A DNA stretch of 64,000 nucleotides from Candidatus Omnitrophota bacterium (GTDB taxonomy: Bacteria; Hinthialibacterota; Hinthialibacteria; Hinthialibacterales; JAKPRU01). A program made the position numbers and the translations under genes. The stretch spans positions 62,001 to 126,000 of the forward strand of contig JAKQSI010000042.1 of assembly GCA_029570205.1 (NCBI GenBank). Reading direction: 5' to 3'. Of this stretch, positions 1,285 to 11,379 are shown one piece after another. Each line of letters starts with the position of its first letter. Position 1 is the first letter of the stretch. The notes beneath the pieces were generated by a model. It did no database searches. It was not told where the DNA came from and saw nothing but the letters and a program-made list of their open reading frames with translations.

Positions 1285-2079
1285 TCATTCGTTTTTACGG
1301 ATTTCGATCCAGATACCGTAATTGATACCGTCCGATCCTTCAGGGCGCGGAATAATGATGGTGTAGGTCTCGATAGCCAAATCCCGCATGATCGTCTCCA
1401 ATTCCTCGCGGGCTTCCTCGATTGAGTAATTGGGAAATCCTTTACCTATCTTATTGCCTGTGTCTTCGCCTTTTTTCTTTCTTTCCGCCTGGCTCTTGAT
1501 CTGGCTCTCGCGAATTTCCCTCGCAATCTCCACAGGAAGATTTTCGGAAAATCCCCGACCGATATAGGCTACGCCACCCGGTTTCAAAATACGCCAAACC
1601 TCCGCGAATCCCGCCTTTTTATCGTCCCAGAAGGGATACGACCCGCGCGAGACAGCAATATCCACATAACTATCGCGCAGGGCCATCCATTGCGCATCAG
1701 AAAAAATCGCGCTCACCTGGCCCCCAATCCCGGCTTCCTGCGCTTTCCGAAAGAAATCGGGGAAAACGGACGGATTGATATCGAGGTTGATCCAGTGCAT
1801 TTTTGGCGAACGCTTACAGAGCTCGATCACTAAGGATCCCGACCCGCCTCCGATATCCACACCGATTCCCGATTTGTCTGCGAGGTTGTAATGGGCCACA
1901 AGCCATTCCGCCAACGGAGCATAGACCGGCGCCAGTCGAGAGGGTCCTGTATTGCGAGGTTTTTCCGTGGTCTCCTTCTTGAATTTCTCCGGATTCGGAA
2001 CTTTTAATATGTCGGCGCCGGCGATGAGACAAAAAATCAGTGCGCAAAGAATTGTTGCGGATATTGCGGATTTTCTCAT
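1285..2079 (-). CDS. Exported class I SAM-dependent methyltransferase
   Basis: The 264-residue product starts with a typical signal peptide (MRKSAISATILCALIFCLIAG). A class I methyltransferase fold follows: motif I GVDIGGGSGSLVIEL at about residues 92-106, an acidic residue in NLDINPS at the end of strand 2, and the post-motif region LKPGGVAYIGRG. The ATG has a good ribosome site (AAAGGATCATCGT). The gene is last in the minus-strand cluster that starts at 10561, 228 bases after the propeller gene, which itself carries a methyltransferase domain. A methyltransferase with a cleavable signal is unusual because S-adenosylmethionine is a cytoplasmic cofactor. Substrate unknown. The signal could instead act as a membrane anchor. 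Confidence 0.8.
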   Translation of the reverse strand: MRKSAISATILCALIFCLIAGADILKVPNPEKFKKETTEKPRNTGPSRLAPVYAPLAEWLVAHYNLADKSGIGVDIGGGSGSLVIELCKRSPKMHWINLDINPSVFPDFFRKAQEAGIGGQVSAIFSDAQWMALRDSYVDIAVSRGSYPFWDDKKAGFAEVWRILKPGGVAYIGRGFSENLPVEIAREIRESQIKSQAERKKKGEDTGNKIGKGFPNYSIEEAREELETIMRDLAIETYTIIIPRPEGSDGINYGIWIEIRKNE

Positions 2080-2132
2080 ACGATGATCCTTTCGTATTGC
2101 TGGTGTTGTTCGTATTTCCTGTTGCCTGGGAA

Positions 2133-2278
2133 ACCCTCACCCAGCCCTCCCGGGGGGAGAGGGAGCGGCCTTCGCTTTTCTGACAGGCAGTGACGCCTGT
2201 CCTGCCAACCCCACCCCGGCCCTCCCTGTAAACGCGGAGGGAGACACTTCCCCCTGTTTACGGGGAGATTGAGGGGGG
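2133..2278. repeat. Intergenic palindromic repeats (families A and C)
   Basis: The space between the propeller gene and the exported methyltransferase holds two C/T-rich hairpins of family A (CCCTCC...GGAGGG, with CCCCTGTTTACGGGGAG at 2252-2268). Between them is one family C hairpin at 2182-2201 (GACAGGC/GCCTGTC around a six-base loop). Related copies occur at many other intergenic sites in the window. Confidence 0.65.
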
Positions 2279-2307
2279 TATGAATGCATATACGTCCGGA
2301 ATCCCCC

Positions 2308-5300
2308 TCACTTCCCCGCGCGAATGGGATGATACCGGATGGGATTGCCGTCACGGTCCGTAATTCGAGCGCTGAAACACCACAGACCGCCTGTCTGAGT
2401 AATCTTCATGAGAATGGTGTTGATCCCTTTCTTGCCATGGACCGGCAGGGCATCCTGGTCCGGCTCACAGCCCCGCTCCCCATCATACTCTCCGGCAACC
2501 TCACCGTTCCACCAGCATCGGAAGCCATCATTGCTGCCGACTTTCACATACAAATCCTGGTCGTTCTCCAGGGGAACCTCGGCATACGCATACGCGGACA
2601 CCCATTCTCCGCCGCCACAGATGCCGACCAGATCCACTATGGGCGCATCGCCGACAAATCGCTCCCAGTGTCGTGTGCCCTCGTCCGTGTCATAGGAGAG
2701 GCTGACATCTACCGCCGGTTCTCCCACAAAGGCTTTATCCAGCGGATACTCACCGCCAAAGGGGAACGGCCCGGCCAGAAGCCAGCGTGTAACATACCCC
2801 TTTTCCGCCGCATCCTTGCCGACCTCAAAGCCGAAGTTGTCCAATTTGCTCAAGATGTCTTGTGTCAGGGAACGGGTTGGAGAGATCACACGCGCACGGT
2901 TCAGCATTCCGATCGCCTTGGCGGGGTCGGATTTTCCAATATCATCCGCAACGGCGACATAAACCCGAAGCGCCTGCTCGACAATATCCGAATCCGGCTC
3001 ACGGTAATTCCACAGCACCGGCGACAAATCCCCGCAGTACGGCTTGATGATCGATAGAGATTGGGGGGATTTTATCTGGGCCATTTTCTGTAGTGCAGAG
3101 ACTAGAACAGATTTGGGCCAGGCCGTTGAGGCGGCAGCATGGTAAAAAACCAACGCGCGATCCCTGTCACCCTGCTCCAACGCTGCATCGGCTAGGGTAA
3201 TCCATTCCGCAGGTTGTTTCTCTTTCGCAAAATCGGGTAAGGCTTCGGATGCGCTCTTGGGAACGTCTTCCCGAACCGCTTTCACAAAATTGAGCAGCGG
3301 GGCCTGTTCTTTTGTGGGATTCTCCACTTTGGGTATCAGTTCGACGGTGAGTGCATTCGAGACCGAAACGCCGGGCAACTCCTTGATGATCGTTTTCTGT
3401 TGCCCGGCAGTCTCTTTTGCGGGATCAAAGTTCTCGGCAACAACCTTTCCCTGGACACGAATATCAAACACACGCTGCCCGATGCGGTCGCTCACCATTG
3501 GAATGAATCCGAGCAAAATCGTATACCGGCCCGGTTCCTCACCCCAGGTATCATCAATGAGCGGAACATCAAACCGCAGCGCACCCAGGCAACCGGATGC
3601 GAACAGCCACGGCTTGTCAATGCCTTGGAATCTGTCCGTGCGGAAGTCCTCGGCAAAATAGCCCATACCGTTGAGAAACTTTTCATTCAGTTTGAACTGC
3701 ACACCGTACGGGCTTTCGCCGCCGTGACTGGTGTACTTTGTGGCAAAGCGGGGATATCCGAACCAGAGGGTCCCGTCATCATCCCGCATGTCGCCCGGCG
3801 CGCCGAGATTGATCGCTAACTCCTTGACCGGCGTCTCAGGACCATGCGCGACAAATACCGTCCAGTCTTTCGGCGTATGGTTTTCCCTGGGCTTGAAAGC
3901 CATGGAGCATTTCAGCGGGAACGAACAGGTGCAGCCGGAACTGGCCTCCGGAAACAGGAGGAGACCATTGGCCGGAATAAGATTGATCCAACATCCGGGG
4001 CGAATCGCGCCGAAGAACGAAATGCCCGCATCGTTGTTCATGTCGTAAAACGCGGCATTGTAAGAGCGATAGAACAGCCCGCTGGGAGCCGCCGAGGTAA
4101 TGCTGCAACAATGTCCGGGGCGCAGGAACTCCCACGGAACTTTCTCGCCGGAAATCGGGTGCGTGCGGGTCTCAATCTCGCCGGTCTCCAGATTACAAGC
4201 ACGCGGCTCGATAATGACCTTATTGCCGACAAGAAGAGGCCGACGCAGGTAATTCAGCGGGCGCGACCAACGAACATCCCCCACCGATGCAGACAATGCC
4301 GTAATGCGCCGCCATCGCAGCGCACCCTCCTGAAATGAGCCTCCGTCATGGTTGCTGAATGTACCGAAGAAAAGCAGCACTCCGTTCTGATATGCGCTTG
4401 CAAGCCTGTCTCCCCCGCAGCCGGTGAGATCGACCGGCTTCTCCCACAGTTTCTTTCCCGTTTTGGCATCGAGCGACACGACCATACGAATGTCCGCCTC
4501 CCCGGGCAACAAAGCGGTTTCTTCGCTCTCTTCGTACTTCTTCTCATCAATCAGGCGTTTCCGTTCATTCAACGCCAGGGCCTTTTGTTCACCTGTCACA
4601 TTCTGATGTGCCAGAAACACTTTTCCATCCGCGATCACCGGGACAATGTTCGCAAACTTGCCTTCTTTGAAAGTCCATAAAACATCCCCGGTTTTCGCAT
4701 CAAGCGCAAAGAAACACTCAGAGAGCATGATCCGGTCGGTCAGAGCGGCTTTCGGCGATTTCTGACTCCCCCAGGCCGGATAGGTGTTCATCTGATGCCA
4801 CAGTGCGCCGGCACGATGCAGGTCCTGCCAGGCATCCCGGTTCGGTTCGGGATATCGCTGCTTGAACGTGTCAAGATATTCCGTATATCGCGAATCCTTT
4901 TGTGTTTCGGGAGTCTGCGGAGTTTCTTTCCATTTTTCGCCGTCCGTCAGATTGTCCCATGTTGATGCGTAGTCGGCTTCCAGCGGATCGGCGACGGAGC
5001 CGAACAGGATTTTCCCATCCGAGGAGATATATCCCCATCGTTTGCGGCCCGAATCGGCGGGTATCGGGAGGGGATAGATATGAACGGTTTCGCCGGTTTC
5101 GGGGTCGAGGCGGTGGCATTTGTCGTGCGCGGCGACATACAGGGCATCGTCCGTAACAACCAGGTTTCCACCGTCCACATCGACACGGACCCGCACAGCG
5201 CCGGGGATTTCCCGCTTCCACAGGAAGGTTCCGTTATAGGCATCGTACGCGCTGATTTCCTCTTCGCCCTGTATAAACAGGCGTCCATCGATGGAGACAG

Positions 5301-7473
5301 GGGCCATGGAACGCGCGTGACGTTCCACCATACCACTCGGTCCCGGTTCGCCGAACCAGAGGACACCCAGCGGGCATTCGACCAGCTGGTCATCGGAACA
5401 TGCGGTGTTCTGAGAATTGCCGTACAGCTCGCGCCAGGAACCGGCTTTCTCAAGCGGCTTGCGCTTTCCACACAGAGTGCAGATACCGGCGCCCTTTTCC
5501 GCAATCATCATGGATATATCGCCAATTGACGCGCTGGAATCCTGGAATTCCTGCATCTTTGATTCCTGAGCGATAGGCGAACGAAAAAAGATGGCTCCCC
5601 CGTCGGGACGAAGAACGCGGGATATCTCTCTGGCATTCAATTCTGCTTCCCCACTTGTTACGGTGGAATCATAGACAATCAGATTGGCGAAATAATCCGG
5701 CAAGTCCCGAATATCCCAGTTCTCGACGATTATCTTTGTTCCGTAGAGAGCCGCGCCATCGAGTTTCGCTTTGGCGTTTTGGACGTTTTGTGGATCGGAG
5801 TCGATGGCAATCACAAACATCTCGGATTGCCGCGCGATCTCATAAGCCAAGTGCCCGTCCCCGCACCCCAGAACGAGGCAATAGCCTTTACGGACGGAGG
5901 ACTGCGTGAAGACATCCTTCGCAAAAGACTGGTAGTCCTTTGAGAGCCTGTCCCCCTTGTACGGAGTCTCTTCGATTTTCGCCGTGCGCTTGCCGGGATT
6001 CTTGGGAGCGCCTTCGGTGAAACAGGAAACCGAGCCGTCATTCGAGCTGACAAGGAGTTTTCCATCGGAGACTGCCAATCCGGCAACCTCACCGGAGACA
6101 CTGCCTTTCCATACCTCTTTGCCGTTCGTGATATCCAGCGCGATCAGCGATTCCTTGCCGCCGAGAATTAAGGTCTGTCCGGCCAAGGCCATCACATTGA
6201 AATTCTTTGCGGGGGCAAACCAGCGGCAGGCGGCCGATTTCAACTGCCCCTGCTCTTGCTGAATGGCTTTCATTCTCGAAGAGATTTGGGCGATTTCTTC
6301 ATTTACGGAGTCTTTGGTTGCCTGATCCGCCTGCGCCAGCTTCGCCCGCAGATCGGCAATCCGTCGTCGGATGTTGGCTTCTTCCGACGCCAGCTCCTGC
6401 AAGCGCTTGTTGATTTCGGGGTATTTCACCCGGTCGATTGCGTAAACACCCTCCGGTGTAAGAACAAACGAGTTCTCCGGAGTAACTACAAGATCAACGC
6501 CTGGGAACCACGCGTATGGTTCGCCGAGTCGTTGTCCGGTTCCATCCTCGTAGGAAACTTTGGCCGGAGTGCCGGAAAGATCAACGCCGGCAATTAACTC
6601 ATTCCGATCCAGCAGCACCCACGTGCCGCCGACCTTGCCGCCCGGATTGAGATAGAAAAGAAACTCGCCATTTCTCCGACTGAATCCGGCAGGCATGGCA
6701 CGGCTCGAAGGCACATAAAGGACCTCTTTCGATACAACCAGGTATCCCTGGGGCGAGATTCCGCCGAAGTTGAGTTCATGTGCCCGGTCTCCGATGGTGT
6801 CGTTTTTCCAAATGACCTCGCCGGTTTCGGCGTTGAGCGCATAAATCTGAATCCCTTCATAGGGAAACACACCGGCGGCGAAATACGCAATACCGTCATC
6901 CACCAGGACATTCGTGCGAACCGGCCAGAGCGAGATCATACGGCCGTTCCCCAGAACCTTCCGGTTGCTGGGGCCTGCGCGGAACTTCCAGACAATCTCA
7001 CCATTCTGCGCGGACAGGCAATAAACATAACCGTCATCGGAGCCGACATAAACATTCCCGTTCGAGATAGATGGGGCCAGCCGCACGGGGCCATCGGTGA
7101 ACCGGGTCCACCGGATCTCGCCGGTTTCCGCATCAAGCGCGTATACCTTGTTGTCTACCGAGGAACCAAAATACGCGATCCCATCCGCGACAGTAACCTG
7201 ATAGGCGCTGTCGAAACGCATTCGGGGAAGTTCCTCCGCCGGTTCGTACCAGGCCGGTTTCGGAGCATGGGGAGTCCGGTATTCCCAGGCGAATGAGAGC
7301 GGCGGTTTGATCCCTTGTGAAGTGACGGCATGTTGGGCGCTGTCGTGACGATAGGTCGGCCAGTTCTCCCCGCAAGCATCATCGGCTGTTATGGCGGAAA
7401 ACCAGAGACAGACGGCTAAAAAGGCGAAAAACATCCCCACGGGCTTCATGAGAAAAAATCTGTGGAAATTCAT
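2308..7473 (-). CDS. Giant exported PQQ-type beta-propeller protein with an internal methyltransferase domain
   Basis: The protein has 1721 residues from the ATG at 7473, which has GGAGA 8 bases upstream; an ATG at 7491 is possible but has no such site. After a signal peptide come PQQ-like propeller blades with repeated 'ALDAETGEIRWT' and 'YCLSAQNGEIVWK' signatures, interrupted by a coiled coil (about residues 350-410). Near residues 505-660 lies a class I methyltransferase domain (motif I VLGCGDGHLAYEIA, then VIAIDSD and NWDIRDLP). A CTLCGKRKP segment and a second propeller follow, then a malectin-like region, a helical repeat region and a C-terminal beta-sandwich ending in an exposed-ligand type fold (WWNGEVAGEY). 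It abuts the ABC ATPase gene (stop at 7492), so it is likely co-transcribed with the transporter. Function unknown; I infer an extracytoplasmic partner of the transporter. Confidence 0.85.
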   Translation of the reverse strand: MNFHRFFLMKPVGMFFAFLAVCLWFSAITADDACGENWPTYRHDSAQHAVTSQGIKPPLSFAWEYRTPHAPKPAWYEPAEELPRMRFDSAYQVTVADGIAYFGSSVDNKVYALDAETGEIRWTRFTDGPVRLAPSISNGNVYVGSDDGYVYCLSAQNGEIVWKFRAGPSNRKVLGNGRMISLWPVRTNVLVDDGIAYFAAGVFPYEGIQIYALNAETGEVIWKNDTIGDRAHELNFGGISPQGYLVVSKEVLYVPSSRAMPAGFSRRNGEFLFYLNPGGKVGGTWVLLDRNELIAGVDLSGTPAKVSYEDGTGQRLGEPYAWFPGVDLVVTPENSFVLTPEGVYAIDRVKYPEINKRLQELASEEANIRRRIADLRAKLAQADQATKDSVNEEIAQISSRMKAIQQEQGQLKSAACRWFAPAKNFNVMALAGQTLILGGKESLIALDITNGKEVWKGSVSGEVAGLAVSDGKLLVSSNDGSVSCFTEGAPKNPGKRTAKIEETPYKGDRLSKDYQSFAKDVFTQSSVRKGYCLVLGCGDGHLAYEIARQSEMFVIAIDSDPQNVQNAKAKLDGAALYGTKIIVENWDIRDLPDYFANLIVYDSTVTSGEAELNAREISRVLRPDGGAIFFRSPIAQESKMQEFQDSSASIGDISMMIAEKGAGICTLCGKRKPLEKAGSWRELYGNSQNTACSDDQLVECPLGVLWFGEPGPSGMVERHARSMAPVSIDGRLFIQGEEEISAYDAYNGTFLWKREIPGAVRVRVDVDGGNLVVTDDALYVAAHDKCHRLDPETGETVHIYPLPIPADSGRKRWGYISSDGKILFGSVADPLEADYASTWDNLTDGEKWKETPQTPETQKDSRYTEYLDTFKQRYPEPNRDAWQDLHRAGALWHQMNTYPAWGSQKSPKAALTDRIMLSECFFALDAKTGDVLWTFKEGKFANIVPVIADGKVFLAHQNVTGEQKALALNERKRLIDEKKYEESEETALLPGEADIRMVVSLDAKTGKKLWEKPVDLTGCGGDRLASAYQNGVLLFFGTFSNHDGGSFQEGALRWRRITALSASVGDVRWSRPLNYLRRPLLVGNKVIIEPRACNLETGEIETRTHPISGEKVPWEFLRPGHCCSITSAAPSGLFYRSYNAAFYDMNNDAGISFFGAIRPGCWINLIPANGLLLFPEASSGCTCSFPLKCSMAFKPRENHTPKDWTVFVAHGPETPVKELAINLGAPGDMRDDDGTLWFGYPRFATKYTSHGGESPYGVQFKLNEKFLNGMGYFAEDFRTDRFQGIDKPWLFASGCLGALRFDVPLIDDTWGEEPGRYTILLGFIPMVSDRIGQRVFDIRVQGKVVAENFDPAKETAGQQKTIIKELPGVSVSNALTVELIPKVENPTKEQAPLLNFVKAVREDVPKSASEALPDFAKEKQPAEWITLADAALEQGDRDRALVFYHAAASTAWPKSVLVSALQKMAQIKSPQSLSIIKPYCGDLSPVLWNYREPDSDIVEQALRVYVAVADDIGKSDPAKAIGMLNRARVISPTRSLTQDILSKLDNFGFEVGKDAAEKGYVTRWLLAGPFPFGGEYPLDKAFVGEPAVDVSLSYDTDEGTRHWERFVGDAPIVDLVGICGGGEWVSAYAYAEVPLENDQDLYVKVGSNDGFRCWWNGEVAGEYDGERGCEPDQDALPVHGKKGINTILMKITQTGGLWCFSARITDRDGNPIRYHPIRAGK

Positions 7474-7491
7474 TCTCGGGTCTCCGATCAT

Positions 7492-8163
7492 CTATGTTGA
7501 GGATGGGTTTTCGACGATTTCACCTCCCCGCAGAAAGACAATTTGATTCGCATACTGGTCCGCCGAATGCCCGTGGGTCACCACAATCACCGTGCCCCCT
7601 TCCCGTTGGAACTCGTGCAGGTGGCGAATCACCTCCTCGGCGTTTTCGGGATCGAGATTGCCGGTGGGTTCATCGGCCAGAAGGATGGAGGGCCGATTCA
7701 TCAGCGCGCGGGCAATTGCAGTGCGCTGTTTTTCGCCTGCGCTCAGTTCGGCAGGCTTATGAAACTCGCGGTGAGAAAGTCCCAGATTCTTGAGTAATTC
7801 CCGTGCCCGTTCACTGGACTCTGCATTCCGCTCGAACCCCGATGCCAGAAGGACATTCTCCAGCACGTTCAAATAGGGAATCAGGTGAAACATCTGGAAG
7901 ACAAATCCGATATTCTTTGCCCGGAACTGCGCCCGTTCCAGTTCATTCATTGCGGAGATTTCCTGGTTGTTCACGGTGACTCGTCCGGTTGTGGGACGCA
8001 TCATTCCACCGATGGTCAACAGCAACGTGCTCTTGCCACTTCCGCTCGGCCCGCGAACAACAAGAAATTCCCCTTGCCGAACATGCAGATTGATATTGTG
8101 AATGGCGCGGACCTCGTTTCGGCCCACTCGGAAAGTTTTACTTACATTTTCGAGAAGAACCAT
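7492..8163 (-). CDS. ABC transporter ATP-binding protein, LolD/MacB type
   Basis: A 223-residue ATPase with Walker [11 protein letters not shown]-loop [13 protein letters not shown], signature [15 protein letters not shown] (LSAGE rather than LSGGQ), Walker [13 protein letters not shown] and switch His VTHG. The size and the DEPTGNLD stretch fit the MacB/LolD/FtsE subfamily, whose members power mechanotransmission rather than classical transport. It lies two bases after the FtsX-type permease and ends one base before the largest possible start of the propeller gene, so it is tightly coupled to both. The permease is its obvious membrane partner. Confidence 0.95.
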
Positions 8164-8165
8164 GA

Positions 8166-9320
8166 TTATTCCTCCCTCAGCGTAACAGCGGGATCCTCCG
8201 TAACCGCGACAACCGCCGGAATGAAACTGGACAGCGCCGTAAATGTCGGCGCAACCAGCAGCGACCAGGTGAGCAGTGAGTAAATCGGACGAATCGACTT
8301 CGCGGTTACTTTGAAAACTTGCGGCCCGAAACTCATCGCAAAAGCGGTCCCCAGAAAGAATCCGATGGCCGCTCCGATCAGCCCGATGATGATGGCCTTG
8401 CCCAGGAACAGCGCAGCGATTCGGAAAGAACCATATCCCAGCGCGCGCAAAACCCCGATTTCAAACCGGCGTTCCCGCACATTCAGGAACGCCAACGCGC
8501 CGATCCAGATTGCGCAGCCGACCAACACAAGGGGCAACAACCGCGCGAAAAACCGCTCAAGCATAAACCGCTGCTCCCGACGCGCATCGGAAATCGCTTT
8601 GAGTTGGATCACCTTGCCCTCCGGCAGCACTTGTTCCAGCTGAGATCGTAACCGATCCAGAGGATCACCGGGTTCCTTGCACAGGCATTCCAGCGCTTGG
8701 ATCTCATTGATCCGGCCATCGAGGTTCAGAATACTCTGTATATCTTTCAGGTGACCGTAGATTCGGATGTCGTCATCGCTGCCCGTTTCCGGCAGACAGG
8801 AGGCTACCTGGAACGGCTTACCGAAAAGATCCACCATATCGCCATTCTTCACCCCCGTTTTTTGTACCAGTTCGTATCCGAGATACACTTTGCCCGGTTC
8901 CACCGCAAACGGAATCATGGAGGATTCCACCACCCCTTTCGGTACGACTTCCTTTGCGGCAATACCGGTCAGAAGAACCTCCATTCCCTGCCAGGTGACT
9001 TTTTGCTGAAGAGTCGCCAGCAGATGTCGATACTGAATCTCGTCCTGTGTCTTCTCAGCAAACCGAAGGACATAATCCTCCGGCATGGTGTAATCGGAAA
9101 ATCCGGTCTCCCAGAACTTAATCATGTCCGTTTCTTTCGGAATGATGCGCAGGTTATAGCCGATGTCGCGCATCAGGCGTGTGGTCTCGCGCTGAGAATC
9201 CTGCGCGCTCGTGAAAAAGGCGACATACACCGCCACCGCAGTAACTACTGCCAGCAGGCTGAGAACAAAGTTATATTCCCGGTGAGTGATTTCTTTGAGA
9301 ATCAGCAGTAGCGTTGACAT
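8166..9320 (-). CDS. FtsX/MacB-type ABC transporter permease
   Basis: A 384-residue protein with one membrane span near residues 18-36, a large extracytoplasmic MacB_PCD-like domain (about 40-255), and three C-terminal spans carrying the FtsX signature FEIGVLRALGYGSFRIAALFLGKA. This is the topology of half-permeases that dimerise and couple ATP hydrolysis to periplasmic movements. The periplasmic domain contains an ALECLCKEPGD stretch with a Cys-x-Cys pair. The ATPase gene follows after two bases and the gene for a Cys-containing exported protein precedes it. Substrate or partner unknown. Confidence 0.92.
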   Translation of the reverse strand: MSTLLLILKEITHREYNFVLSLLAVVTAVAVYVAFFTSAQDSQRETTRLMRDIGYNLRIIPKETDMIKFWETGFSDYTMPEDYVLRFAEKTQDEIQYRHLLATLQQKVTWQGMEVLLTGIAAKEVVPKGVVESSMIPFAVEPGKVYLGYELVQKTGVKNGDMVDLFGKPFQVASCLPETGSDDDIRIYGHLKDIQSILNLDGRINEIQALECLCKEPGDPLDRLRSQLEQVLPEGKVIQLKAISDARREQRFMLERFFARLLPLVLVGCAIWIGALAFLNVRERRFEIGVLRALGYGSFRIAALFLGKAIIIGLIGAAIGFFLGTAFAMSFGPQVFKVTAKSIRPIYSLLTWSLLVAPTFTALSSFIPAVVAVTEDPAVTLREE

Positions 9321-9367
9321 GATACCCTTTCCCTGAAATCACCCATAAACTGGGTGACTGATCTGTT

Positions 9368-10561
9368 TCATTTTGATCCAAGTCCTCTTCGAACAGCGAT
9401 CACAATCCCCACCAGAATAACAACCCCAAATCCGGCGATTGTCCAGAGGACTGTTCGAGTATAGAGGTCAGGTTTCCGTTCCTCGGAAGATGGAGGATCG
9501 ATTGCCCGCGACGGAACAGGCTGCTCGACAACCGGCGCAGACTCGGCTCCGAACTCCACAACCTGCTCGCTGTATCCGAACAGAGGATCCGTGTTCGGAT
9601 TCTCGGAAGATATTCCCACCGTCTCCCCGGACAGGCCGGAAGCCAGTATCTGGCCGATCTCCATTTTCACCATCGGGTTCTCCGCATCAAAACCGGCCGA
9701 TTCGATCACTTGCGATCGCATGGTGGAATCCCAACGGAGAGGCACAGGCATCCCCATAATCAGGCTCCGGTCCAGGCCGCATTCGCACGATGCGCCAACC
9801 AGCCCAAGCAACGAAAAAAGGCGGCTTTCAACAATCTCGTCTCGGTGCAAAACCGGCCCCATCCTGCGCCCTCTTCCGTACAGCGCCACGACATGAGGAT
9901 CGTTTAATGCTTCCTCATCGAGATTCATACCCCACAACAACACTTGCTCATTCGGAAATGATTTTGGAGAAATCCGAACCAGGTAAGGATTCACCTCCAC
10001 AGGTTTCGGCAATTGGTCTGCCAATCCGGTGATCCGCTCGATAGCACGTTGAATGTGCTGCAAGGCCCGCTGATTCGCTTCCGCATCTTGTCCCTCGATC
10101 AGAAGAACAACGCAGTATGATTTCACGAGATGCTCCAGGATGTCCCGGCGGACCGGAGAATCACAGGCCTGCTCGAGGGATGTCATTAAAGAGTCCGATG
10201 TTTCGGCAATGGGGAGCAACAGGGACCTTCCATCCGGCGCAACAAGAACACAGGCGGGAGATTGGAGATTCTGCCCTGAGGGAAAATATCGGAGCGCGGG
10301 ATGATCCGGCTCGCTGTCCGTGCGGACAATCTCAGGCTGGATATTGGAGTCCATCAGGGCAACCAGCGCGGCCCTGTCGAACGCCTCGATTCGAGCCGGG
10401 GGAGTTTGGTCCCCGACGAAGCAATAGAGATGGTACAAATCGCCCGGGAACTGAACAAACCCGACATCGCGAACCGTATATCGGCAGGCATGGGCGTGCG
10501 AAACGAAGAAGAGCAGCACAAAGAAAACTGCCGGGAAAAACGCAGATGTCTTGGGAATCAT
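9368..10561 (-). CDS. Exported single-pass protein of unknown function ('CRYTVRDVGFV' type)
   Basis: The product has 397 residues from the ATG at 10561 (an earlier start at 10597 would lie upstream of the apparent promoter). A signal peptide ends in SHAHA and is followed directly by CRYTVRDVGFV, so Cys may be the first mature residue; there is no typical lipobox. The middle looks like two alpha/beta modules, with a GASCECGLDRSL segment about two thirds along. A single C-terminal membrane span (LWTIAGFGVVILVGIVIAV) is followed by a short basic tail. It is the first gene of the transporter cluster, 47 bases before the permease. I recall the CRYTVRD start from uncharacterised PVC-type proteins but know no function. 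Confidence 0.7.
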   Translation of the reverse strand: MIPKTSAFFPAVFFVLLFFVSHAHACRYTVRDVGFVQFPGDLYHLYCFVGDQTPPARIEAFDRAALVALMDSNIQPEIVRTDSEPDHPALRYFPSGQNLQSPACVLVAPDGRSLLLPIAETSDSLMTSLEQACDSPVRRDILEHLVKSYCVVLLIEGQDAEANQRALQHIQRAIERITGLADQLPKPVEVNPYLVRISPKSFPNEQVLLWGMNLDEEALNDPHVVALYGRGRRMGPVLHRDEIVESRLFSLLGLVGASCECGLDRSLIMGMPVPLRWDSTMRSQVIESAGFDAENPMVKMEIGQILASGLSGETVGISSENPNTDPLFGYSEQVVEFGAESAPVVEQPVPSRAIDPPSSEERKPDLYTRTVLWTIAGFGVVILVGIVIAVRRGLGSK

Positions 10562-10668: not shown

Positions 10669-11379
10669 TTGAGGATACCGAGAAACGAGGTGTCGGAAAT
10701 TATGAGTGGCATGTTGAGAAAAGAATATTTAAGAGAGATATGCGGGTGGACGGAGAATCGAGCGACGTGGAATCGGGGCGCGCGAGGCGTTCTGACTCAG
10801 ATTCAGGACATGGAAACCTCCCTGGTGTTTCCGATTCTGGGGTTTGATTGCGACAACGGTTCCGAGTTTCTGAATTATCATCTGTTCCGGTATTGGACCG
10901 GTCGGAACTCCCCGGTCTCGTTTACACGCGGTCGTCCGTATCATACCAATGACAGTGCGCACGTCGAGCAAAAGAATTGGACCCATGTTCGCCAATTATT
11001 GGGCTATGATCGGTTCAGTAATCCGGATTTAGTGGAACCGATCAACGGTCTCTACGCCCACGAGTGGAGCCAATTCCAGAATTTCTTTTGTCCCACCTTG
11101 AAACTCGAAAGCAAGGAACGGATCCACTCCAAAATACGGCGCCGGTACGGGAAACCACAGACACCCGCCGAACGTCTGCTGGAGTGTCCGGATGTGACCT
11201 GTGAGGCCAAACAGCGTCTTCGGGACACCCTGCGTTCCCTGAATCCGTTCCAGCTTCGGGAAGCCATTGAACGGAAACTCAAAATGATTTTCAATCTTCG
11301 TGAGGAAACGAAATATGGGTCAGCGATTTGCTCTGAACGGGTGTTTAACTCCAGTCGGCCTACGGCCTCCTTCCGTTAA
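10669..11379 (+). pseudogene. Transposase remnant, DDE integrase core (N-terminus and first catalytic Asp missing)
   Basis: From about base 10744 the frame encodes the second half of an integrase-type transposase: GWTENRATWNRGARG, the second catalytic Asp in GFDCDNGSEF, the TRGRPYHTND stretch and the catalytic Glu in HVEQKNWTHVRQLLGY. A long C-terminal region NFFCPTLKLESKERI follows. The zinc/HTH N-terminus and the first catalytic Asp are absent; the roughly 25 residues before GWTENRA do not continue the family and are AT-richer, which suggests a deletion junction near 10743. The frame runs into a hairpin at its 3' end. It is not expected to be active. Confidence 0.8.

Follow-up and report, generated by a model that had tools for sequence, protein, structure and literature searches.

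Here we describe a cluster of five minus-strand genes between positions 1285 and 10561 of a 64,000-nucleotide stretch of DNA (the window; contig JAKQSI010000042.1 of assembly GCA_029570205.1) from a Candidatus Omnitrophota bacterium. The genes, which we label CRY, PERM, ATP, PROP and MT in their order 5' to 3' along that strand, form one conserved system that joins a MacB/FtsX-type ATP-binding cassette (ABC) pair to exported proteins with methyltransferase folds. We tentatively propose, at somewhat less than an even chance, that an ABC machine of the MacB/FtsX type here powers thiol/metal (cofactor) chemistry outside the cytoplasm and that a sulfur-carrier module sometimes feeds it.

The evidence that the five genes belong together is their recurrence. 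The same genes are clustered in relatives from the window's own class, while CRY-PERM-ATP together with PROP is found in Planctomycetota, KSB1, a Bacteroides metagenome-assembled genome (MAG) and further phyla, and relatives also occur in two Phycisphaerae/Phycisphaerales genomes. In a genome of another phylum (G068, locus L104) the order CRY-PERM-ATP-PROP-MT is identical to that of the window, with identities of 37% for CRY, 57% for PERM, 63% for ATP, 54-56% for two propeller stretches of PROP and 54% for MT. Among 386 genomes sampled around the window, searches with a CRY profile and with the PERM protein returned the identical set of 14 genomes at high score, three of which lie outside the main class and belong to other families; the chance of such a co-occurrence is 6.8e-26 if the genomes are taken as independent, a figure that is in truth weaker since 11 of the 14 represent one class. 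The co-occurrence that an earlier note on this DNA, made from the letters alone, had proposed to look for is clearly there. Across the coding pieces compared, the ratio of nonsynonymous to synonymous substitution rates (dN/dS) was 0.05-0.22, and because the cluster recurs in many genomes under such constraint, it is not a chance neighbourhood.

The strict CRY family is present in 18 of 392 Planctomycetota genomes. Over all 33 strict CRY loci, the window included, PERM and ATP each stand beside CRY at 26 and PROP at 22, always on the same strand, and a ModA gene is found at 17. Several of the loci without PERM, ATP or PROP end at contig edges, and in one genome (G008, L062) PERM and ATP lie on a different contig from CRY. 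A sister group with a diverged CRY ('CxVPVFRYALERW') has the order CRY-PERM-ATP-ModA-ModB-ModC-ThiF in Planctomycetota genomes assembled as one contig; 23 loci of this sister type hold PERM and ATP in 14 cases, ModA in 17 and a ThiF-like gene in 12.

In the window, CRY spans 9368-10561 from an ATG start (397 residues), or extends to 10597 from an upstream TTG (409 residues). It is followed on the same strand by PERM (8166-9320, an FtsX/MacB-type permease of 384 residues), ATP (7492-8163, a LolD/FtsE-like ATPase of 223 residues), PROP (2308-7491, an exported protein of 1721 or 1727 residues depending on the start chosen) and MT (1285-2079, an exported class-I methyltransferase). The gaps measure 47 bp between CRY and PERM, 2 bp between PERM and ATP, 0 bp between ATP and PROP and 228 bp between PROP and MT, in agreement with the closely spaced run of five genes that the earlier note had described. 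CRY, PROP and MT begin with hydrophobic N-terminal signal segments. The genome holding the window comprises 4.39 Mb in 131 contigs, with a completeness of 93% and a contamination of 4%.

PERM matches the Pfam family FtsX (PF02687, E 1.5e-13, residues 264-374) and, according to its hydropathy, has the four-segment topology of MacB, with transmembrane segments at about residues 18-36, 263-281, 301-319 and 355-373 and a large loop between the first two. ATP matches ABC_tran (E 6.8e-36), and its Walker A, signature (LSAGE), Walker B and H-loop motifs are intact. The best NCBIfam match of ATP is LolD, at 211.8 bits, and PERM matches lolCE at 40.4 bits; neither score reaches its curated cut-off (307.75 and 362.45, respectively). 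Judged by topology and family models, the pair is a member of the type VII (MacB/FtsX) ABC superfamily, as the earlier note had it, and the link to exported methyltransferase-fold proteins that it described is real and conserved across phyla. For the MacB family a mechanotransmission model is established, in which ATP use is coupled to movement outside the membrane and not to solute passage (PMC5985334). No recurrent MacA-type adaptor was seen in the loci inspected, a genome-wide search with a MacA model not having been made, and no EnvC-like partner was recognised in the loci.

CRY has no family match in Pfam or NCBIfam. Its hydropathy profile is that of an exported, tail-anchored protein, with an N-terminal signal segment and a C-terminal transmembrane segment followed by basic residues, and an AlphaFold2 model (mean pLDDT 78.5, above 90 over most of both domains) predicts two thioredoxin-like domains (residues ~51-147 and 145-271) and a C-terminal helix. 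Comparison with structures of the protein disulfide isomerase (PDI) and thioredoxin type by Foldseek and VIA gave a best VIA Z of 8.7 (root-mean-square deviation (rmsd) 2.6, 103 aligned residues), a modest score that supports a thioredoxin fold and not a function. When 60 diverged superfamily members are aligned, three cysteines are kept in every row, namely C38 (10484-10486, minus strand), which lies at the expected site of signal-peptide cleavage or close to it, and both cysteines of a C-x-C late in domain 2 (C271 and C273, 9779-9787, minus strand); the only other column without exception is one glycine. The CxxC of thioredoxin and PDI oxidoreductase active sites is absent from the CRY of the window. 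The invariance of the N-terminal cysteine and of the C-x-C points to a putative three-thiol site.

PROP is recognised in Pfam by PQQ_2 (4.5e-40), malectin (8.9e-12) and Methyltransf_25 (2.4e-8), and its layout consists of a BamB-like propeller, a methyltransferase-like domain, a second propeller, a malectin domain (PF11721; residues 1260-1379, 3355-3714, minus strand) and a C-terminal module. In a model of residues 1-1180 (pTM 0.76), the first propeller is predicted to be eight-bladed (residues 62-495, with a helical hairpin at 357-421; 6007-7308, minus strand) and aligns with BamB at a Z of 32.0 (Foldseek/VIA; rmsd 3.1, 322 aligned residues). Identification of PROP as a PQQ dehydrogenase or as BamB itself was rejected on the curated family models, PQQ_enz_alc_DH scoring 62.9 against a cut-off of 480.05 and BamB 90.1 against 285.2. 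The second propeller contains a cluster of four cysteines (C1129, C1167, C1187 and C1189; 3925-4107, minus strand), of which the first three are each kept in 36 of 37 aligned homologues and the last in 34.

The methyltransferase-like domain of PROP (residues 517-677; 5461-5943, minus strand) was delimited from Pfam, predicted alpha/beta elements and motif counts, and its predicted fold is a complete alpha/beta methyltransferase-like one. Although the Pfam fold models pass, the motif-I acid is absent from all 33 PROP domains compared, its place being taken by V (as in the window protein), I, L, Q or H and never by D or E; the middle glycine of motif I is kept in only 13 of the 33, and the beta-2 acid in 28. 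Going by these motifs, the domain has probably lost or altered its catalysis and probably serves in binding or as a scaffold. In several relatives (L063, L065, L072) the gene is split before this domain, leaving a second half that starts with its own signal peptide, so that export is probably no annotation error; these split genes are the best evidence that the domain probably sits outside the cytoplasm. Separately, when the two sister genomes carrying the window and L042 were compared, the synonymous divergence (dS) of 5461-5943 was 0.82 as against ~0.25-0.28 in the flanking parts of PROP, which suggests that the segment has been recombined or exchanged between sister species.

MT, by comparison, is intact in its motifs. 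It matches Methyltransf_11 in Pfam (E 2.2e-11; 44.7 bits, cut-off 21.2), among solved structures its nearest relative is 3dlc (78 bits), and both motif I (VDIGGGSGSL) and the beta-2 acid stretch (INLDINP) have the expected residues in all four family members, each of which also has a signal-peptide-like N-terminus, unrelated phyla included. Of the two secreted methyltransferase domains claimed in the earlier note, the one in MT keeps its motifs, whereas that in PROP lacks the motif-I acid. MT is found beside the system at only four loci (the window, L062 in G008, L104 in G068, and L191, where it is part of a longer protein); where present, it may add real methyl transfer. A ~73-bp element at 2207-2281, between PROP and MT, is a short dispersed repeat that occurs at more than 20 places in the genome, on both strands and at roughly 70-97% identity. 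Because the 228-bp gap contains this repeat, MT may have its own transcript and be transcriptionally separate from PROP.

In most Planctomycetota and in many relatives of the window's class, the cluster extends into genes for a ModA-like protein of two domains, for ModB and ModC and for a member of the ThiF/MoeB family. Together with the ubiquitin-like protein described below, these are the commonest extra partners, and the earlier note had missed them; half-length TauE/SafE proteins and a rhodanese are encoded at the loci of some relatives. The cluster ModA scores 94.0 and 115.8 against the modA model TIGR01256, above the cut-off of 62.5. A small open reading frame (ORF) between ModC and ThiF encodes a ThiS/MoaD-family protein, a ubiquitin-like protein (Ubl), which is present at 22 of 24 loci with a cluster-type ThiF and in all 22 has a conserved C-terminal GG, with a few extra residues beyond it in three. 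The Ubl exceeds the cut-off of Pfam ThiS (PF02597) in all three cases tested, and its scores against the MoaD equivalog (24.2 and 22.4) stay below the required 66.15.

The ThiF-like protein departs from its family in a consistent manner. We aligned 23 cluster copies with MoeB and with housekeeping members of the family from the same class, and found that in all 23 the first part of GxGGxG is replaced by S-R, the usual beta-2 Asp by A-H and the TDN of DxTDN by AP (mostly APLF), with a KREFPVFG-type stretch at the position of TCVEAG in MoeB; every copy retains the Arg of DLNRQ, and 21 of 23 retain the zinc CxxC pairs. That the Ubl has a GG tail to match is a sign that some step of its activation may survive. 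A plain molybdenum-cofactor operon was rejected, as the ThiF-like protein lacks the MoeB signature residues and no recurring moaA/C/E-like gene was seen by eye, no model search being part of that inspection.

Of the 18 CRY-positive Planctomycetota genomes, 16 have the double ModA (E <= 1e-60), as do 33 others, many of them with the sister system. It was not found in the window's genome or in its two genus-mates, and several genomes with a complete core have no ModABC. The only ThiF homologue of the window's genome and its two genus-mates is 37-38% identical to the cluster type; in the window genome and one genus-mate it was aligned and has ordinary E1 motifs, and the 38%-identical copy of the window genome is probably a housekeeping one. 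Given these absences, ModABC-Ubl-ThiF is a detachable supply module and not part of the window's locus. Directly upstream of CRY, at 10669-11379 on the plus strand, is an ORF that by eye resembles the catalytic part of an insertion sequence (IS)-type transposase or integrase. It occupies the site at which several relatives have the ModABC-Ubl-ThiF-TauE genes, and its insertion may have accompanied their loss.

Relatives of single components also occur in other settings. At L107, L108, L109, L110 and L111 we observed paralogous modules that place a PROP-type protein next to a diverged CRY and have no PERM or ATP; the one at L109 continues with a double ModA and ModB. Diverged CRY-family genes without an ABC pair are further present in the window's own genome (L112:6910-7887, C19), at L113:8418-9398 and at L077; the gene preceding CRY at L112 and L113 encodes a type IV pilin-like 'FTLIELLIVVAIIGILAAIAVPNFM' protein, and a gene of that type comes after the PROP paralogue at L077. 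In the gene lists of three one-contig Planctomycetota loci (L242, L244, L249), a neutral-ceramidase-like gene directly follows ThiF (PF04734 in L249) and is either a lineage-specific neighbour or an additional part. The ceramidase-like and pilin-like flanking genes of the one-contig Planctomycetota loci look lineage-specific and were left out of the system.

How might these parts work together? We infer that CRY, PERM and ATP assemble in the cytoplasmic membrane into a type VII (MacB/FtsX) ABC complex, which would pump no solute through the membrane and would instead use ATP to move its extracytoplasmic part. CRY, which is encoded directly before PERM and evolutionarily matched to it, is the natural partner of the permease, and as a membrane-anchored pair of thioredoxin folds it would present the N-terminal cysteine and the C-x-C. 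PROP would be the exported client or scaffold, comprising the BamB-like propeller, the probably non-catalytic or altered methyltransferase-fold domain and the second propeller with its four-cysteine site. The most constrained features are the cysteines of the two exported proteins CRY and PROP; given this constraint, the machine would handle a thiol-bound species outside the membrane. We speculate that the motor cyclically opens or loads the thiol site of CRY, and that the bound species, most likely a metal or a sulfur-containing cofactor, is delivered to or exchanged with PROP or enzymes held by PROP. A cytoplasmic supply composed of the ModABC-like anion importer, the MoaD/ThiS-like sulfur carrier and its E1-like partner would feed this species or a precursor of it in most Planctomycetota and many relatives of the window's class; the window's genus and a few other lineages do without, and a few genomes, the window's included, add an intact exported methyltransferase. 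A version in which the motor powers covalent chemistry outside the cytoplasm, moving sulfur or methyl groups onto a metal or cofactor bound by thiolates, while the Ubl sulfur carrier supplies it from inside in many lineages, seems to us rather unlikely.

Several observations weigh against the proposed thiol/metal machine. The cysteines of CRY could be a redox pair instead of a metal site, and the four in the PROP propeller could form two structural disulfides. The loss of the MoeB/E1 signature residues from the ThiF-like protein weakens the case for a sulfur carrier, and with the supply module missing from the window's genome the core must work alone or with other suppliers. In addition, the CRY locus is sometimes without PERM and ATP or without PROP (L062, L066 and some sister-type loci), absences that are not secure on short contigs given that stop-to-stop ORFs and MAGs were used.

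Among the alternatives, the accidental adjacency of five ordinary genes could appeal to how common ABC ATPases, propellers and methyltransferase folds are, and is already refuted by the same order across phyla and in paralogous modules and by the perfect co-occurrence of CRY and PERM in 386 genomes; we regard its probability as negligible. Extracytoplasmic methyl transfer, the chemistry favoured in the earlier note, would make PROP and MT active methyltransferases dependent on S-adenosylmethionine (SAM) outside the cytoplasm, with the ABC pair supplying SAM or positioning the substrate. The intact motif I and signal-peptide-like N-termini of MT, its place beside the system in four genomes, the signal peptide retained by the separately encoded methyltransferase-like half and the beta-2 acid of most PROP domains (28 of 33) are in line with it. 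Yet the universal loss of the motif-I acid from the PROP domains, together with the frequent loss of the middle glycine and the absence of MT from most loci, speaks against methyl transfer as the chemistry of the system, and we know of no source of SAM outside the cytoplasm. Moreover, transporters of the MacB type are not believed to move solutes across the inner membrane (PMC5985334), and nothing on exported methyltransferases was found in the open-licence PubMed Central (PMC) literature. This explanation is therefore, in our view, improbable.

A Lol-like or FtsEX-like envelope system, in which CRY and the BamB-like propeller would be periplasmic adaptors for lipoprotein release or for control of the cell wall or outer membrane, appears only slightly less doubtful. 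LolD is the top match of ATP, lolCE is among the matches of PERM, BamB is the closest structure to the PROP propeller, and the archetypes of periplasm-directed action in the family are FtsEX and LolCDE (PMC5985334). The scores, however, are far under the curated LolD and LolCE cut-offs, the spread is patchy (14 of 386 genomes, and 18 of 392 Planctomycetota for the strict CRY), unlike that of the essential Lol and Fts systems, and ModABC, the Ubl, the ThiF-like protein and the invariant cysteines would be left unexplained.

A further alternative is oxyanion or metal acquisition, in which CRY, PERM, ATP and PROP would handle a thiol ligand or metallophore outside, ModABC would import the anion, and the Ubl and ThiF-like protein would make a sulfur-containing ligand. 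MoaD/MoeB-like pairs make such ligands in some siderophore pathways. The cluster ModA passes the curated modA model, its bound ligand being a prediction, and the double ModA accompanies CRY in nearly all CRY-positive Planctomycetota (16 of 18); Ubl/E1 pairs act in sulfur transfer (PMC1779556), and MacB-type systems are able to export siderophores (PMC5985334). Acquisition is nonetheless unlikely, as ModABC is missing from several genomes with a complete core and the loci inspected show no recurring gene for an outer-membrane receptor, a ligase or another biosynthetic step. Anti-phage defence and a phage origin were also rejected, PADLOC giving only generic weak matches (mad2 methyltransferase, CARF-LolE TM, E1-E2) and none for CRY, and PHROGs giving no match.

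Given that genomes assembled as one contig carry the cluster, the system may be open to gene deletion in cultured Planctomycetes. Its gene set spans several phyla and occurs in complete Planctomycetota genomes as well as in MAGs, and CRY, its central partner, bears no family name. It links three things that we do not know to have been joined before: an ABC motor of the FtsX type, methyltransferase-fold domains that are exported and, in many lineages, a Ubl/E1-like pair with a molybdate-type importer. It also makes concrete the question of whether chemistry of the SAM or sulfur-carrier type extends to the periplasm. Were the covalent version of the mechanism true, the system would be the first one known to us that assembles a cofactor outside the cytoplasm with ATP as its driver and with exported methyltransferase-fold proteins.

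The earlier note had supposed that this link was new, and no description of it was found in the family libraries or in the open-licence PMC literature, where exported methyltransferases, FtsX with a propeller or methyltransferase, and MoaD/ThiF with FtsX in Planctomycetes were looked for. The known systems nevertheless resemble it in part. With MacB, FtsX and LolCDE it shares the four-segment permease with a large loop after the first segment, the separate LolD/FtsE-like ATPase and a periplasmic partner; that partner, however, is a tail-anchored tandem thioredoxin-fold protein, there is in addition an exported propeller bearing a methyltransferase fold, and neither a MacA adaptor nor an EnvC-like partner was recognised in the loci, nor were the Lol cut-offs reached. 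Similarly, CRY has the tandem thioredoxin-like folds of PDI-type proteins, but in the window its thiols are the invariant N-terminal cysteine and the late C-x-C in place of a CxxC. PROP resembles BamB and other PQQ-repeat propellers in its eight blades (Z 32 to BamB), and differs from them in its more than 1700 residues, its two propellers flanking a methyltransferase-fold domain, its malectin and C-terminal modules and its four conserved cysteines. The supply module recalls MoaD-MoeB and ModABC in a ModA that passes the curated model, a ThiS/MoaD fold with a C-terminal GG and a ThiF-family partner, whereas here ModA is double-domain, the MoaD equivalog cut-off is not reached, the ThiF-like protein lacks the DxTDN, the first Gly of GxGGxG and the beta-2 Asp of MoeB, and the whole is tied to an FtsX-type ABC pair and exported proteins while being absent from the window's genome. 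Other prokaryotic Ubl/E1 neighbourhoods likewise combine ThiS/MoaD-like and E1-like genes with an anion ABC transporter (Iyer 2006, PMC1779556), but the text of that survey mentions neither FtsX nor planctomycetes, and the E1-like subfamily here has a signature of its own. As a whole the system appears to be undescribed, its parts being members of known folds and families.

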